Under the pieces are notes generated by a model, which searched no databases, was not told the DNA's origin, and worked only from the letters and a program-made list of their open reading frames with translations. Of a stretch of 64,000 bases of DNA, positions 2,721-8,925 are shown one piece after another. This stretch comes from Mycolicibacterium peregrinum (lineage in GTDB: Bacteria; Actinomycetota; Actinomycetes; Mycobacteriales; Mycobacteriaceae): assembly GCF_002102345.1 (NCBI RefSeq), contig NZ_LQPP01000018.1, positions 1 through 64,000 on the forward strand, read 5' to 3'. Position 1 is the first letter of the stretch. Each line of letters starts with the position of its first letter. A program made the position numbers and the translations under genes.

Positions 2721-3125
2721 CTACTGGGGGAAGCCGGCGATCCCGGCGAGTCCGTTGAGCGCGCCGAGGTTGTTCAGGATCGAGCCGTCGCCGATCGACG
2801 ACATCATCTGCGGGCAGTACATCTGGATGGCGATGCCCGTGAAGAACGACGCCATCTGGGGCGACATGCCGCCGTCGCCGCGCATCTGGGAGGCCACCGA
2901 GGCGAAGTCCTTGCCGGGCTCGACCAGCATCGGACACACTTCCTGGCCCATCTGGACGGCCGCGCCGGGATCGCCGTAGCCCACCCCGGCGTCGTTCAGG
3001 GCGTTCAAGAACGAGCTGTCGGTCGTCGGATTGGGGACCGGGGCCGGGTCGGCCTGTGCCGGGACGGCCACCGCGAGGGCGACGGAAACAACACCTACGG
3101 CGGTCAGGAGGGCGCGAGCGGCCAT
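2721..3125 (-). CDS. Small exported DUF732-type protein
   Basis: This is a 134-aa protein with a clear signal peptide: MAARALL, then a hydrophobic run, then an AQA/DP cleavage region near residue 26. The mature part is a compact helical domain with two cysteines (in EVCPM and MYCPQ) that could form a disulfide, as in mycobacterial DUF732 secreted proteins, whose function is unknown. The frame is open to 3146, but ATG 3125 is preferred because GAGGAG lies 7-8 nt upstream and the signal peptide starts cleanly there. It is tandem with pepN and 38 bp upstream of it. Confidence 0.8.
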   Translation of the reverse strand: MAARALLTAVGVVSVALAVAVPAQADPAPVPNPTTDSSFLNALNDAGVGYGDPGAAVQMGQEVCPMLVEPGKDFASVASQMRGDGGMSPQMASFFTGIAIQMYCPQMMSSIGDGSILNNLGALNGLAGIAGFPQ

Positions 3126-3415: not shown

Positions 3416-4048
3416 ATGGCTCCCCAAGATCAGAAGGCCGCAGGCCAGAAGGATACCGCCGGCTTCTGGTTCGACCCGCTGTGCCCGTGGTGCTGGATCA
3501 CCTCGCGCTGGATCCTCGAAGTCGAGAAGGTCCGCGATATCGACGTGCAGTTCCACGTCATGAGCCTCGCGGTGCTCAACGAGGGCCGCGACCTGCCCGA
3601 GAACTATCAGGAACTGATGAAGAAGGCGTGGGGACCGGTCCGGGTCGCCATCGCCGCCGAGCAGCTCAAGGGGCCGGAGATCCTCGGCCCGCTCTACACC
3701 GCGATGGGCTTCCGGATCCACAACCAGGACAACAAGGACCTCGACACCGTCATCGCGCAGGCACTCGAGGAAGTCGGCCTGCCCGCCGAGCTGGCCGAGG
3801 CAGCCGACACCGACAAGTACGACGAGGCGTTGCGCAAGAGCCACCACGCCGGCATGGACGCCGTCGGTGAGGACGTCGGCACCCCGACCATCCACGTCAA
3901 CGGCGTCGCGTTCTTCGGCCCGGTGCTCTCGAAGATCCCGCGTGGCGAAGAGGCCGGCAAGCTCTGGGACGCGTCGGTGACGTTCGCGTCGTACCCGCAT
4001 TTCTGGGAGCTCAAGCGGTCGCGCACCGAGGCGCCACAGTTCGACTGA
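3416..4048 (+). CDS. DsbA-family mycothiol-dependent nitroreductase (Rv2466c-like)
   Basis: This 210-aa protein has a thioredoxin fold with a helical insertion and the active-site motif CPWC at residues 23-26, preceded by the FDPLC context typical of Rv2466c. The family uses mycothiol as electron donor and in M. tuberculosis activates nitrofuranylcalanolide-type prodrugs and protects against oxidative stress. The cis-proline region is GTPTIHVNG at about residues 158-166. The start is ATG 3416 with GAGAGGAA upstream. Its place next to pepN matches Rv2466c-Rv2467. It is single-gene or first in a unit, with palindromes right after its stop. Confidence 0.9.
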
Positions 4049-4064: not shown

Positions 4065-4087
4065 AAAATCGCGATTCCGGTTGCGTA

Positions 4088-4115: not shown

Positions 4116-5513
4116 ATGACAGCGGCTGAGCCCAGCACCGACGGCACGTACCGGGACCGAATCGCCGCCGTGGAACCGGGCGGCAACGAGCACATCGCCG
4201 ACGCCGACCGGCACGGAAAGCCCAGCCAGCTGTTCTGGACCTGGACCTCGCCGAACCTGGAATTCGCCACCATCTTCCTGGGTGTGCTGGCGGTCTCCGT
4301 CTACGGCATGACGTTCTGGCAGGCGGTGGCGGGCCTGGCGGTCGGCACCGGCCTCGGCGCTCTCGCGCACTACTTCCTGTCCAAACGCGGTCCGCTGCAC
4401 GGAGTTCCGCAGATGGTCCTGGGTCGGCTGGCATTCGGCTTCCGGGGCAACGCCGTGCCCTCGCTGCTGATGACGGTGACCGCGGGCATCGGATGGTTCG
4501 CCACCAACAGCGTCAGCGGGGCATTCGCGTTGTCCACGTTGTTCGGCGTCGCTCCGGTGCTGGCTCTGGTGCTCGTCGTCGTGGTGCAGACCGCGCTGGC
4601 GGTGTTCGGGCACAACCTGGTGCAGGCCTTCGAACGCTGGGCGTTCCCGATACTCGCCGTCATCTTCGCCGTCACCTCGGTGGTGATCCTGAGCAAGGCA
4701 GACCTGGGTGCCCCGGCGGTCACGGGCGGTGTCGGCGGCATGGGCGGCTTCCTGCTCACCGTGGGCACCGCGTTCGGCTACGTCGCGGGGTGGGCGCCGT
4801 ACGCCGCCGACTACACGCGCTACCTCCCACGGTCCGAGGCCGGTCCACGCACCGGATTGTTCGCCGCCGCAGGACTGTTCGTGTCCTGCATGCTGTTGCA
4901 GACGGTCGGGGCCGCGTCGGTGACCATCGGCCCCGCCGTCTCGGACAACCCCACCTCCGCATTCACCGCGGAGCTGGCGCCGTGGCTGGCGAGTCTGACC
5001 CTGCTGGCCATCGCGATCGGGGCGATTGCCGCCAATGCGATCAACATCTATTCGGGCGCAATGGCTTTCGTGACAATCGGGATCAAGCTCCCGCCTCACA
5101 TCGCGCGGGCCCTGGCGACCGCTTTCTTCGGGGTCGTCGGGTTTCTCATCGCCTGGTGGGCGCTGGCCGACGCGGCGGCGAGCTACGAAGCGTTCCTGTT
5201 GATCATCGCGTACTGGATCGGGCCGTGGCTGGGTGTGGTGTTCGCCGACGAGTACCTGCGCGGCGACCAGCCCGTGGCGCAATTCCTCTACGACCGGTCC
5301 TACACCAACTGGCCCGGCCTGGTGTCGTTCCTGCTCGGCCTGGTGGTGTCGGTGACGCTGTTCTGCAACCAGACGAAGTTCGTCGGGTACATCGCGCGGG
5401 AGGTTCCGCAGTCGGGTGACATCACGTTCTTCGTCGGCTTCCTCATCGCCGGGGCAAGCTACCTCGTGTTGTGCCGGTCCAAGCTCACCGCGGAACGGAA
5501 GGTGCCGGCATGA
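4116..5513 (+). CDS. NCS1-family nucleobase (cytosine/purine) permease
   Basis: A 465-aa integral membrane protein with about 12 hydrophobic segments starting near residue 50, typical in length for NCS1 (CodB-like) transporters. The N-terminal DRIAAVEPGG and WTSPNLEF segments and the GYVAGWAPYAADYTRYLP stretch near residue 225 are characteristic of the family. It likely imports cytosine or a related base by cation symport. It is the first gene of a three-gene unit: its TGA overlaps the deaminase ATG by 4 nt. The start codon lies directly after a perfect hairpin. The exact substrate cannot be read from sequence; the deaminase neighbour argues for cytosine or 5-methylcytosine. Confidence 0.85.
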   Translation: MTAAEPSTDGTYRDRIAAVEPGGNEHIADADRHGKPSQLFWTWTSPNLEFATIFLGVLAVSVYGMTFWQAVAGLAVGTGLGALAHYFLSKRGPLHGVPQMVLGRLAFGFRGNAVPSLLMTVTAGIGWFATNSVSGAFALSTLFGVAPVLALVLVVVVQTALAVFGHNLVQAFERWAFPILAVIFAVTSVVILSKADLGAPAVTGGVGGMGGFLLTVGTAFGYVAGWAPYAADYTRYLPRSEAGPRTGLFAAAGLFVSCMLLQTVGAASVTIGPAVSDNPTSAFTAELAPWLASLTLLAIAIGAIAANAINIYSGAMAFVTIGIKLPPHIARALATAFFGVVGFLIAWWALADAAASYEAFLLIIAYWIGPWLGVVFADEYLRGDQPVAQFLYDRSYTNWPGLVSFLLGLVVSVTLFCNQTKFVGYIAREVPQSGDITFFVGFLIAGASYLVLCRSKLTAERKVPA

Positions 5514-5950
5514 CCCCGGAGCAGATGCTCGACGTCGCTGTCGAGGAAGCGCGAAAAGGACTGGCCGAAGGCGGAATTCCGATCGGCGCGGCCCTGTTCG
5601 GTTCGGATGGAACACTGCTGGGCGCCGGGCACAACCGGCGCGTGCAGAACGACGATCCGTCGATCCATGCCGAGACCGACGCCTTCCGGGCCGCCGGGCG
5701 GCAACGCGGCTACCGGTCCACCATCATGGTGACCACCCTCTCGCCGTGTTGGTACTGCAGCGGGCTGGTCCGTCAGTTCAACATCGGTGCCCTGGTGATC
5801 GGGGAGAGCCGGACCTTCACCGGTGGGCACGACTGGCTGGCCGAGCACGGCGTCGCGGTCACCCTGCTCGACGACGAACGCTGCGTGGCGATGATGGAGG
5901 ACTTCATCGCCGAGCGGCCGGATCTGTGGGCGGAGGACATCGGCGAATGA
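5510..5950 (+). CDS. Cytosine-deaminase-like nucleobase deaminase (CDA fold)
   Basis: A 146-aa zinc deaminase of the cytidine deaminase superfamily, resembling yeast-type cytosine deaminase and guanine deaminases. The zinc site is HAE at residues 53-55 and PCWYC at 79-83. The expected reaction is cytosine (or 5-methylcytosine) to uracil (or thymine) plus ammonia. ATG 5510 is chosen because it gives the ATGA overlap with the permease stop and the domain starts at once. Its own TGA overlaps the next ATG (5947), so the three genes are translationally coupled. It is unrelated to E. coli CodA, which is an amidohydrolase. Confidence 0.85.
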   Translation: MTPEQMLDVAVEEARKGLAEGGIPIGAALFGSDGTLLGAGHNRRVQNDDPSIHAETDAFRAAGRQRGYRSTIMVTTLSPCWYCSGLVRQFNIGALVIGESRTFTGGHDWLAEHGVAVTLLDDERCVAMMEDFIAERPDLWAEDIGE

Positions 5951-6906
5951 GCGCCATCGCAACTGTGGACATGTCTCGCTGGTATGCCGGTGGAGCGGAG
6001 GCCGATGCGGTTGCCGCCGAGGTCGACGCCGGCCTGCAGCGCGCCGGGTTCATCGTGGTCACCGGACACGGCGTCGACACCGACCTGGCGAGCAAGGTGC
6101 GTGCGGCCAGCCGCGAGTTCTTCGGCTTGCCCGACGAGGTCAAACAGCGCTACTCGGTACCGGTCGGCGGGCACGGCTGGATCGGACCCGGGGCCGAGGC
6201 CAACGGCTACGCCGAGGGCACCGAGACCCCGCCCGATCTCAAGGAGAGTTACAGCCTGGGTGCCGAGACTGCGACCGGCGACCCCGAGGTGGACCGGATC
6301 TGGTTCGCCCCCAACGTGTGGCCGACCGAGGTGCCCGCGTTGCAGGCATTGGTCGACGAGTACACCGCTGCGATGCGAAAGGTGTCCGACGACCTGCTGG
6401 CGTTGTTCGCCCACGCCCTCGGACTGACGGTCAATCCCTTTGTCGCACTGGCCGACCGGCCGACGTGGACCATGAACATCAACCACTATCCGCCGGTGAG
6501 TGTGGTGGGGGAGCCCGAGCCCGGACAGTTCCGGATCGGACCGCACACCGACTTCGGCACCGTCACGATCCTGGACCGCGAGCCCGGCGCCGGCGGCTTA
6601 CAGGTGTACTCCGAGCAAGAGGGCTGGGAGGACGCGCCGTGGGAGCCGGGATCGCTCACGGTCAACATCGGTGACCTGCTGGAGTATTGGAGCGGGCAGC
6701 GGTGGCCGTCGGGCCGGCACCGGGTGCTGCCGCCCCAGCCGCACGCCCCCGAGGAGGACCTGGTCTCGCTGATCTACTTCTACGAGGCCAACCACGACGC
6801 ACTCGTTACTCCGCTGGAGCCACCCATCGGCAAGGTCTCGGGTCTGGAGCCGGTGACGTCAGCGACCTTCATCAAGGAACGCCTGGACGCCATCACCCTG
6901 GGGTAG
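5947..6906 (+). CDS. Isopenicillin-N-synthase-type Fe(II)/2OG oxygenase
   Basis: A 319-aa protein with the N-terminal DIOX_N half (residues about 5-110) and the double-stranded beta-helix half. The iron ligands are visible as H200-x-D202 (in PHTDFG) and H258 (in SGRHRV). At the position where most family members have the 2-oxoglutarate-binding R-x-S, this protein reads L-V-S (about 272-274), so the cosubstrate is uncertain. Coupled by ATGA overlap behind a base permease and a deaminase, it may hydroxylate a pyrimidine base, as the related fungal thymine-7-hydroxylase does; that is inference. Its 3' end overlaps the convergent aldo/keto reductase gene by 48 bp. Confidence 0.8.
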   Translation: MSAIATVDMSRWYAGGAEADAVAAEVDAGLQRAGFIVVTGHGVDTDLASKVRAASREFFGLPDEVKQRYSVPVGGHGWIGPGAEANGYAEGTETPPDLKESYSLGAETATGDPEVDRIWFAPNVWPTEVPALQALVDEYTAAMRKVSDDLLALFAHALGLTVNPFVALADRPTWTMNINHYPPVSVVGEPEPGQFRIGPHTDFGTVTILDREPGAGGLQVYSEQEGWEDAPWEPGSLTVNIGDLLEYWSGQRWPSGRHRVLPPQPHAPEEDLVSLIYFYEANHDALVTPLEPPIGKVSGLEPVTSATFIKERLDAITLG

Positions 6907-7785
6907 GTCTGTGTGGACGGCATCGAGGTCGGCGAGCTGCTGCTCGTTGAGCAGCAGGTCGCCTGCCGCCAGGTTCTCCTCGAGGTGGGCGATCGACGTG
7001 GTCCCGGCGATGAGCAGGGTGTTGGGCGCGTGCGCGAGTAACCAGGCCAGCCCGATCTGTGCGCCGCTGACGCCGAGGTCCGCGGCGATCCGTTGCACCA
7101 CAGCGTTTTCGGCGACCTTCGGAAAGCTCGGGAACGCCGAGCCGAGGGGAAAGAACGGCACCCAGGCGATGCCCTGTTCATTGCACAGTGCCAGTTCGTC
7201 CTCATGGCTGCGGTTGAGCAGGCTGTAGGCATTCTGCACGCATACGATCCCGGCGGACAGCGCACGGCGCAGGGTCTCCAGGTCGACGTTGCTGATCCCG
7301 ATCGCACCGATCTTGCCTTCGTCGCGCAGCGCGATCATCTCGGCCAACTGATCGTCCAGATCGACGATCTGATCGCCCTCGGCGACCAACCCGGGGCCGA
7401 TGTCGGCGCGCCGCAGGTTCACGACCGGAATTTGATCCAGCCCGAGGCCGGCCAGGTCCAGTTCGACGGCGTGGCGCAGGTCCGCGGGGTGCTGGGCCAG
7501 CGCGAGAGGTATCGGTCCGGTGGCCGGCCGGGCCCCGACCTTGCTGACGATGAGCAGATCGTCCCGATACGGGGCGAGCGCGTCCCGGATGCGCCGGTTC
7601 ACCACGCCGTCGTCGTAGAACGATGCGGTGTCGATGTGGTTGACGCCGAGCTCGACGGCGCGGTGCAACACGGCAGTCGCATCGTCGTGGGGGAGCTCGC
7701 GTCCGAGACCCATGGCGCCGTAGCCGATCCGAGCCACGCTGTGTCCGCCGATGGTGCCGGTGCCGCCGGGATGCGATGGGGTCAT
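6859..7785 (-). CDS. Aldo/keto reductase
   Basis: A 308-aa (alpha/beta)8 NADPH-dependent oxidoreductase. Asp52, Tyr57 and Lys82 of the catalytic tetrad are visible, but the usual catalytic His is replaced: the strand reads VVNLRRAD, placing Asn at about 123, as in a subset of bacterial AKRs. The C-terminal segment AWLLAHAPNTLLIAGTTS is the cofactor-binding signature. ATG 7785 is preferred over ATG 7806 because AGGAG lies 6 nt upstream. It is divergent from a TetR gene across two operators and probably controlled by it. The substrate is unknown. Confidence 0.88.
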   Translation of the reverse strand: MTPSHPGGTGTIGGHSVARIGYGAMGLGRELPHDDATAVLHRAVELGVNHIDTASFYDDGVVNRRIRDALAPYRDDLLIVSKVGARPATGPIPLALAQHPADLRHAVELDLAGLGLDQIPVVNLRRADIGPGLVAEGDQIVDLDDQLAEMIALRDEGKIGAIGISNVDLETLRRALSAGIVCVQNAYSLLNRSHEDELALCNEQGIAWVPFFPLGSAFPSFPKVAENAVVQRIAADLGVSGAQIGLAWLLAHAPNTLLIAGTTSIAHLEENLAAGDLLLNEQQLADLDAVHTDLPQGDGVQAFLDEGR

Positions 7786-7820
7786 GGTGCACTCCTGGGA
7801 TGTCATACTCGGAAGTGATG

Positions 7821-7834
7821 CGGAGGGACCTCCG
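7821..7834. promoter_or_regulatory. TetR operator, copy 1
   Basis: Inverted repeat CGGAGG-GA-CCTCCG in the divergent AKR/TetR gap, 36 bp upstream of the AKR start. An identical-arm copy lies with its centre 33 bp away, about three helical turns. Confidence 0.65.
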
Positions 7835-7853
7835 TTTCACCACGCTAACAAAA

Positions 7854-7867
7854 CGGAGGAGCCTCCG
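7854..7867. promoter_or_regulatory. TetR operator, copy 2 (contains the RBS)
   Basis: Inverted repeat CGGAGG-AG-CCTCCG ending 2 nt before the TetR ATG. The GGAGGAG inside it is also the Shine-Dalgarno of the TetR gene, so repressor binding site and ribosome-binding site are the same bases. Confidence 0.65.
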
Positions 7868-7869
7868 CT

Positions 7870-8424
7870 ATGGCTGAACGGGCCGACGCGCGACGCAACA
7901 GGGAACGCCTGCTTGCGGCCGCCGCAGCAGCGTTCGCCGCGTCGGACGGTCCCGTCTCGCTGGAGGCCATCGCCCGCGAGGCCGGTGTCGGCATCGGGAC
8001 GCTCTACCGTCACTTCCCCAGCCGCGAGGCCCTCATCGAGGCCGTCTACCGCGCCGAGCTGGCCGAGGTCTCCGCGTCCGCGGCCGACCTGTCCGGCCGG
8101 TACCCGCCGCCGGTGGCGCTGCGCCGGTGGATGAACCGCTACGCGACGTTCGTGGCCGCCAAGAAGGGCATGGCCGAATCGCTACGCACCATCTTCGAAT
8201 CCGGCGCGGTCGACCACCGCGACACCAAGGCGAGCATCACCGGGGCGGTCCAGACCCTGCTCGATGCCGGTGCCGCCGATGGCAGCCTGCGGGCGGATGT
8301 GCGGGCCGAGGACGTGGTGTCGAGCCTGCTCGGGATCTTCCTGGCCAGCGGCTCGGCCGAGCAGGCGCAGCGAATGCTCGATCTGCTCCTGGCAGGTATC
8401 CGAGCTGGTGCTGTGGCGGGGTGA
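7870..8424 (+). CDS. TetR/AcrR-family transcriptional regulator
   Basis: A 184-aa repressor. The N-terminal helix-turn-helix (residues about 8-54) contains the family pattern EAIAREAGVGIGTLYRHFPSR. The C-terminal ligand domain ends in SSLLGIFLASGSAEQAQRML, of the type seen in SCO4008-like regulators. ATG 7870 sits 2 nt after the second operator and is served by GGAGGAG. It is divergent from the aldo/keto reductase gene and probably represses both itself and the reductase; the ligand is unknown. Confidence 0.9.
   Translation: MAERADARRNRERLLAAAAAAFAASDGPVSLEAIAREAGVGIGTLYRHFPSREALIEAVYRAELAEVSASAADLSGRYPPPVALRRWMNRYATFVAAKKGMAESLRTIFESGAVDHRDTKASITGAVQTLLDAGAADGSLRADVRAEDVVSSLLGIFLASGSAEQAQRMLDLLLAGIRAGAVAG

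Positions 8425-8445: not shown

Positions 8446-8925
<480 letters not shown>

Follow-up and report, generated by a model that had tools for sequence, protein, structure and literature searches.

The stretch of Mycolicibacterium peregrinum DNA analysed here, 64,000 nucleotides long (positions 1 to 64,000 of contig NZ_LQPP01000018.1) and referred to below as the window, carries on its forward strand three overlapping genes for an NCS1-family permease likely to carry a base, a deaminase of the yeast FCY1 type predicted to act on cytosine, and an Fe(II) oxygenase of the DIOX/isopenicillin N synthase (IPNS) type. The operon is real and more widespread than first noted, and the new point, as judged from aligned sequences, is an oxygenase clade in which the arginine of the RxS co-substrate motif has been replaced. 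We propose, with a probability of roughly 0.4, that the permease imports cytosine or 5-methylcytosine, that the deaminase would convert these to uracil or thymine, and that the oxygenase would oxidise the deaminated base, with thymine favoured over uracil; the co-substrate arginine has probably moved, such that Arg211 would take over from the missing RxS residue and 2-oxoglutarate or a similar 2-oxoacid would still drive the reaction. No paper joining a cytosine deaminase, an isopenicillin N synthase and a permease was found in a search that left most subscription journals outside, so the print record may differ.

An oxygenase clade without the RxS arginine

The oxygenase gene (5947..6906, + strand) encodes a 319-residue protein with PF14226 and PF03171 domains, for which the structural model has a pLDDT of 89.3. 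Its putative iron ligands are His200-x-Asp202 (6544..6552, +) and His258 (6718-6720), and this H-x-D...H triad is kept in 101 of the 102 non-redundant, mostly mycobacterial oxygenases that we aligned from all loci, with thymine-7-hydroxylase (T7H) added for comparison of sites; domains and triad together place the protein in the DIOX/IPNS-type family. The RxS motif, common among these iron enzymes (PMC3828642, partial text), reads LxS in the window oxygenase and in all 79 members of its clade. Leu272 (6760..6762, +) replaces the RxS arginine at the site of T7H Arg286, which is Leu in 79/79 clade members and Arg in 23/23 sequences outside, while Arg211 (6577..6579, +), at the site of T7H Gln225, is specific to the clade (79/79 within, 0/23 outside); the 23 other sequences have Gln at this site in 12 cases, Ala in 6, and Thr, Ser, Asp, Val and a gap in one each. 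A third difference is presented by Asn177 (6475..6477, +) at the site of T7H Arg190, with Asn in 78/79 clade members and Arg in 20/23 others, and within the clade the sites of T7H Leu192 and Asn87 are Asn in 79 and Gly in 76 members, respectively. Four relatives of solved structure, matched by sequence, all have Arg at the 286 site and Gln at the 225 site, and the two best such matches, Anc357 (9ovh, an ancestral ethylene-forming-type enzyme) and Pseudomonas aeruginosa 6jyv, differ from the window protein in having the RxS arginine and, at the 211 site, Gln. The 79 sequences, picked by motif, form exactly one clade in the tree (support 0.986).

In the model, strand 206-210 ends and strand 272-282 begins at residues 211 and 272. 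In the usual barrel of this fold these strands are antiparallel neighbours, and a natural reading is that Arg211 would face Leu272, the arginine having moved between neighbouring strands. Another candidate for a stand-in, Arg257, which precedes the third iron ligand, was rejected, as TropC, an RxS enzyme, likewise has Arg-His-Arg there. A natural clade with RxS Arg replaced by Leu, and with Arg at the common Gln site, would offer a clean test case for the evolution of co-substrate choice.

The uniform leucine at the RxS site (79/79) also fits an enzyme working without 2-oxoglutarate, with a hydrophobic 2-oxoacid or, like isopenicillin N synthase, with no co-substrate, its substrate being either a base or some unrelated metabolite. 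Neither isopenicillin N synthase nor ACC oxidase is known to use 2-oxoglutarate. The human AspH variants R735Q and R735W, which share with the clade the loss of the arginine that binds the 2-oxoglutarate C-5 carboxylate, can use 10 of 12 hydrophobic 2-oxoacids, whereas the wild type can use none of them (PMC12816917, partial text); they are disease variants of another 2-oxoglutarate oxygenase and, unlike the sequences considered here, do not form a natural clade. However, Arg211 may replace the lost arginine, and isopenicillin N synthase and ACC oxidase both keep RxS (PMC3828642, partial text), so that simple loss is not their solution, and we regard such an enzyme as distinctly unlikely.

Comparison with thymine-7-hydroxylase

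An earlier note on this DNA saw in the unit a bacterial counterpart of the fungal thymine-7-hydroxylase route, and T7H does head the VIA-align fold list for the oxygenase, tied with three other, non-T7H enzymes. 2-Oxoglutarate is anchored in T7H by Arg286, Ser288 and Tyr194 at its C-5 carboxylate and by Arg190 at its C-1 carboxylate; Arg190 also holds the substrate and is vital for the binding of both, and the base is contacted by Asn87, Glu122, Asn294, Phe292 and Tyr217, with Phe or Trp also occurring at the last of these sites and Phe in some T7Hs (PMC4787775, partial text). Between Neurospora crassa T7H (5c3p-5c3s) and the window protein the changes are Arg286 to Leu, Gln225 to Arg, Arg190 to Asn, Leu192 to Asn, Asn87 to Gly, Glu122 to Ser, Asn294 to Glu and Tyr217 to Phe; the 2-oxoglutarate contacts Arg286 and Arg190 are thus not kept (Leu272 and Asn177 in the window), and the aromatic sandwich of Phe292/Tyr217 is present as Phe278/Phe203. 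The T7H-contact residues that are kept, namely the Phe278/Phe203 pair, Tyr194, Ser288, Leu223 and Val273, are common to all or most ordinary relatives and are therefore not specific to T7H. With Asn87, Glu122, Arg190, Leu192, Arg286 and Asn294 all different, the T7H label, and with it this part of the earlier proposal, is not supported by the aligned residues.

A true T7H route, in which thymine would be oxidised to 5-carboxyuracil with 2-oxoglutarate and then decarboxylated, draws on the leading place of T7H in the fold list, on the retained aromatic pair, given the Phe found at the Tyr217 site in some T7Hs (PMC4787775, partial text), and on an operon logic that runs through 5-methylcytosine. 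It has to contend with the replacement of Arg190, Arg286, Asn87 and Glu122, the first of them vital in T7H (PMC4787775, partial text), and with the tie between the top fold matches, and no recurrent decarboxylase-like neighbour was noticed among neighbours of which not every one was identified, the rest of the genome not being searched for an isoorotate-decarboxylase-like protein. We consider this route very unlikely.

Distribution of the unit

A scan of GTDB species genomes with the window deaminase returned 578 confirmed relatives, and the best 80 of these, a sample chosen by the deaminase, were used for comparison of neighbourhoods; counts in the 80 loci are lower bounds, as some contigs end nearby. 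In 56 of them the deaminase is immediately followed by the oxygenase, and in 46 it is immediately preceded by the permease; 44 have the full triple, and 12 have a deaminase-oxygenase pair without an adjacent permease. Full triples are found in mycobacteria (40/49), actinobacterial metagenome-assembled genomes (1/2) and Pseudonocardia (3/10), and are absent from the sampled Nocardia (0/12, with the pair in 2), Streptomyces (0/3, with the pair in 3) and other genera (0/4). In Pseudonocardia, ribosomal-protein/rpoA genes, named by eye from the translations of one locus (L052), precede the unit or its deaminase at eight loci.

A second sample of 148 same-genus genomes, related to each other, was not chosen by the deaminase. 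An oxygenase orthologue (at least 79% identity) is present in 41 of these genomes and in 41/41 cases is the next gene 3' of the deaminase, on the same strand; the gap between matched ends is -4 to 77 nucleotides, with a four-base overlap in 13. The deaminase-oxygenase gene order is far beyond chance, and we attach no probability figure to it, the genomes being related. Rare co-occurrence of the three genes, which the earlier note had named as grounds for abandoning its reading, is not what this neighbourhood survey found, and the adjacency counts support the three genes as a conserved unit.

Beyond the genus, the oxygenase clade occurs in at least 8 of 396 genomes sampled across the phylum, with three further genomes having RxS relatives only; other phyla were sampled through plasmid records only. 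Four of the carriers are Streptomyces-like, three with the deaminase directly upstream and one in which it is absent from that position. We note that at one locus (L024, 10001-10570) the deaminase is matched at full length and the oxygenase by a 34-residue piece only, and that at another (L038, 8784-9992) the permease is matched in two pieces.

Other settings of the oxygenase clade

A second type of clade member, with 49-52% identity, is found in 5 of the 148 same-genus genomes (L110-L114), where in 5/5 cases a divergent HTH-cupin-type regulator, an NCS1-type permease, the clade oxygenase and an ordinary RxS oxygenase stand together; an adenosine-deaminase-family protein is present in 3/5 of these sister operons, all three above the TIGR01430 cut-off. 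The Pfam scan of the sister operons covered the L113 set only, and the RxS partner in L111 comes from translated search only. A further row, on a Rhodococcus qingshengii plasmid, combines genes for an XRE regulator and an NCS2 permease with those for an RxS oxygenase, a clade member and a VOC protein. The RxS partners, including that of the Rhodococcus plasmid, keep T7H Asn87, Arg190, Arg286, Ser288 and Phe292 (6/6 each), and at these sites they look more T7H-like than the window oxygenase does. In Streptomyces, a deaminase-oxygenase pair (L081, 8623-9990) lies beside a divergent PucR-family regulator (PF07905), possibly a substrate sensor. As a separate observation, an RxS oxygenase paralogue in the host genome itself (G000:C48, L146) belongs to a cluster that includes transporter-like genes, these named by eye, and a hydantoinase-like amidohydrolase some 2.4 kb away.

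The recurrence of the clade with nucleobase-type transporters of two families and with a second, unrelated deaminase family ties most of the observed clade to nucleobases, a conclusion well supported by context. A more ambitious reading, which we find doubtful, is that the clade forms a bacterial class of nucleobase oxygenases operating from permease and deaminase operons in pyrimidine and purine versions, in which the RxS arginine hopped between strands, the 2-oxoacid changed, and an undescribed base-oxidation pathway resulted. Were the clade to oxidise bases, pyrimidine and purine use in actinobacteria would gain a branch not yet described, and a function would be supplied for many proteins that carry no other name than 'isopenicillin N synthase family oxygenase'.

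The deaminase and the permease

The deaminase (5510..5950, +; 146 residues) matches PF00383 with 64.7 bits and yeast cytosine deaminase with an E value of 4.4e-33. Yeast cytosine deaminases are its best relatives of solved structure, and the alignment with them spans residues 5-146 and takes in the C-terminal DIGE. When ten residues of the yeast site are compared, the window protein keeps nine (Asn51, His62, Glu64, Cys91, Cys94, Phe114, Trp152, Asp155 and Ile33), each kept in 81/81 sequences comprising the window and its 80 relatives, the exception being Gly63, which is Ala in 67/81, window included, and Gly in 14/81. We take His62, Cys91 and Cys94 to bind zinc and Ile33 to belong to the site; the roles in it of yeast Glu64, Asp155, Asn51, Gly63, Trp152 and Phe114 are described in PMC11000218 (partial text). 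The zinc site with catalytic Glu64 and the base site of Asn51, Phe114, Trp152 and Asp155 are thus both of the type seen in Saccharomyces FCY1, from which the window protein differs in its Ala at the Gly63 site and in its bacterial operon setting. A deaminase step on cytosine is therefore a strong prediction from these residues, as the earlier note had held in calling the enzyme a yeast-type cytosine deaminase. A comparison of the 59 deaminases that have a related oxygenase in their locus with the 22 that do not revealed no separating alignment column by the cut used, which we take to mean that both groups would act on the same base, favouring an oxygenase that acts on the product of the deaminase.

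The permease (4116..5513, +; 465 residues) matches the NCS1 profile PF02133 with 125 bits against a cut-off of 23.5, falls below the cut-off of TIGR00800 (115 versus 353), and scores 32.7 bits against a cut-off of 326 with the CodB profile NF008241; no solved structure matched it by sequence at an E value of 0.001. In an alignment with an annotated Palleronia CodB it keeps the TM3 tryptophan (CodB Trp108) and has Gly at the Gln105 site. The overlap of NCS1 permease and cytosine deaminase genes recalls Escherichia coli codBA (PMC9379551, partial text), whereas the window deaminase is of the yeast FCY1 family, the permease lacks the CodB Gln105, and an oxygenase is added.

Fate of the product and weighing of the pathway

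The host genome encodes two uracil phosphoribosyltransferases and one D-hydantoinase/dihydropyrimidinase-family protein over cut-off. The latter (G000:C43, L145) is clustered with M20-type amidohydrolase-like and racemase-like proteins, both identified by eye. A RutA route was rejected, no RutA being found above cut-off in the host genome. In the clustered neighbourhoods, judged by eye, we noticed no recurrent fourth gene beyond the backbone genes.

The lack of such a gene would fit a product that enters core metabolism, as in a demodification salvage: the oxygenase would take a methyl group or another small substituent off a modified pyrimidine before or after deamination, and the resulting uracil would enter ordinary salvage, for which the two phosphoribosyltransferases are at hand. 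In yeast, N4-acetyl- and N4-methylcytosine are reported to serve as sources of uracil, with enzymes of the conversion still to be identified (PMC12299217, partial text), and the same logic, applied to purines, would suit the sister operon, whose deaminase belongs to another family. The deaminase site, however, is identical with and without the oxygenase, the deaminase comes first in the gene order, and there is no direct sign of a methylated substrate; we judge such a salvage rather unlikely.

A further reading is hydroxylation of the uracil ring to give barbiturate, a form of the oxidative pyrimidine route run by an oxygenase. Both operon types, the pyrimidine one and the presumed purine one, would then be united as ring hydroxylations, and on the atrazine plasmid pADP-1 (L099, 9974-11092) the neighbour of a related FCY1-like deaminase is a short piece of a protein of the AtzD/barbiturase (cyanuric acid hydrolase) family. 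However, the barbiturase family PF09663 is found in 0/148 same-genus genomes, the host genome included, by a search that matches pADP-1 as positive control with an E value of 8.6e-149. A barbiturate product would therefore lack the known exit in the host, and on these grounds the route was rejected as the preferred reading and appears most improbable.

The reading that we prefer, oxidation of the deaminated base by an oxygenase with a relocated arginine, has to be set against several observations that weigh against it. The replacement of Arg286 by Leu and Gln225 by Arg is a single event, since the 79 sequences form exactly one clade, and does not amount to many independent observations; the facing of Arg211 and Leu272 is inferred from the usual strand order of this fold and from where the strands end in the model; and mutation of T7H Arg286 lowered activity only moderately (PMC4787775, partial text), so that loss of the arginine need not call for a replacement. 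The T7H base contacts Asn87 and Glu122 (Gly75 and Ser103 in the window) and Asn294 are not kept, and the aromatic Phe278, which is kept, is shared with all 23 outgroup sequences and is thus no pointer to a base. Among the 53 same-genus genomes with the deaminase, 12 have no oxygenase beside it, as is true of 10 of the 12 Nocardia deaminases in the best 80. The permease has no equivalent of CodB Gln105 and is not of the CodB type by that measure, and a clade member on a Streptomyces plasmid (L095) has an MFS transporter as its neighbour, while no nucleobase permease or deaminase is annotated in the 25 kb of that locus. Finally, the ordinary uracil exits of the host mean that uracil needs no oxygenase.

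Gene layout and upstream region

Direct reading of the sequence confirms the three genes in the order that the earlier note had given, with an ATGA overlap at the permease/deaminase junction (5510-5513) and another at the deaminase/oxygenase junction (5947-5950), and the family domains matched. A mechanical list of open reading frames contains longer frames for the deaminase and oxygenase; the ATG starts at 5510 and 5947 were used because the resulting 146 and 319 residues are the lengths of close relatives. Deaminases of M. porcinum, M. septicum and M. peregrinum are 97-99% identical to that of the window.

The unit is flanked by an Rv2466c-like gene (3416-4048) and rpiB (8446-8925), and the claim that it interrupts the backbone between them holds as to position but not as to a fresh interruption, these flanks being usual in mycobacteria. 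Both are seen in 40 of the 49 mycobacterial loci, and the operon is therefore an old resident of the Rv2466c-rpiB site. Aldo-keto reductase and TetR genes (6862-8424) lie between the oxygenase and rpiB; they were rejected as operon members because they are present in only 8 of the 80 relative loci.

Upstream of the permease, no RNA switch was detected above the Rfam gathering score between positions 3000 and 9000 of the window. A GGTTGC box, promoter-like or operator-like, lies at 4079..4084 (+), at -37 from the permease start. The same hexamer is present in 32 of 44 upstream stretches of 120 nucleotides (the window and 43 loci), compared with 2.1 in 44 after base shuffles; it stands exactly at -37 in 27 of the 44, a location that would fit a leaderless promoter. 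Beside the box lies an inverted repeat (4088-4096/4103-4111), which, as judged by eye, is present whole or in part in near relatives only.

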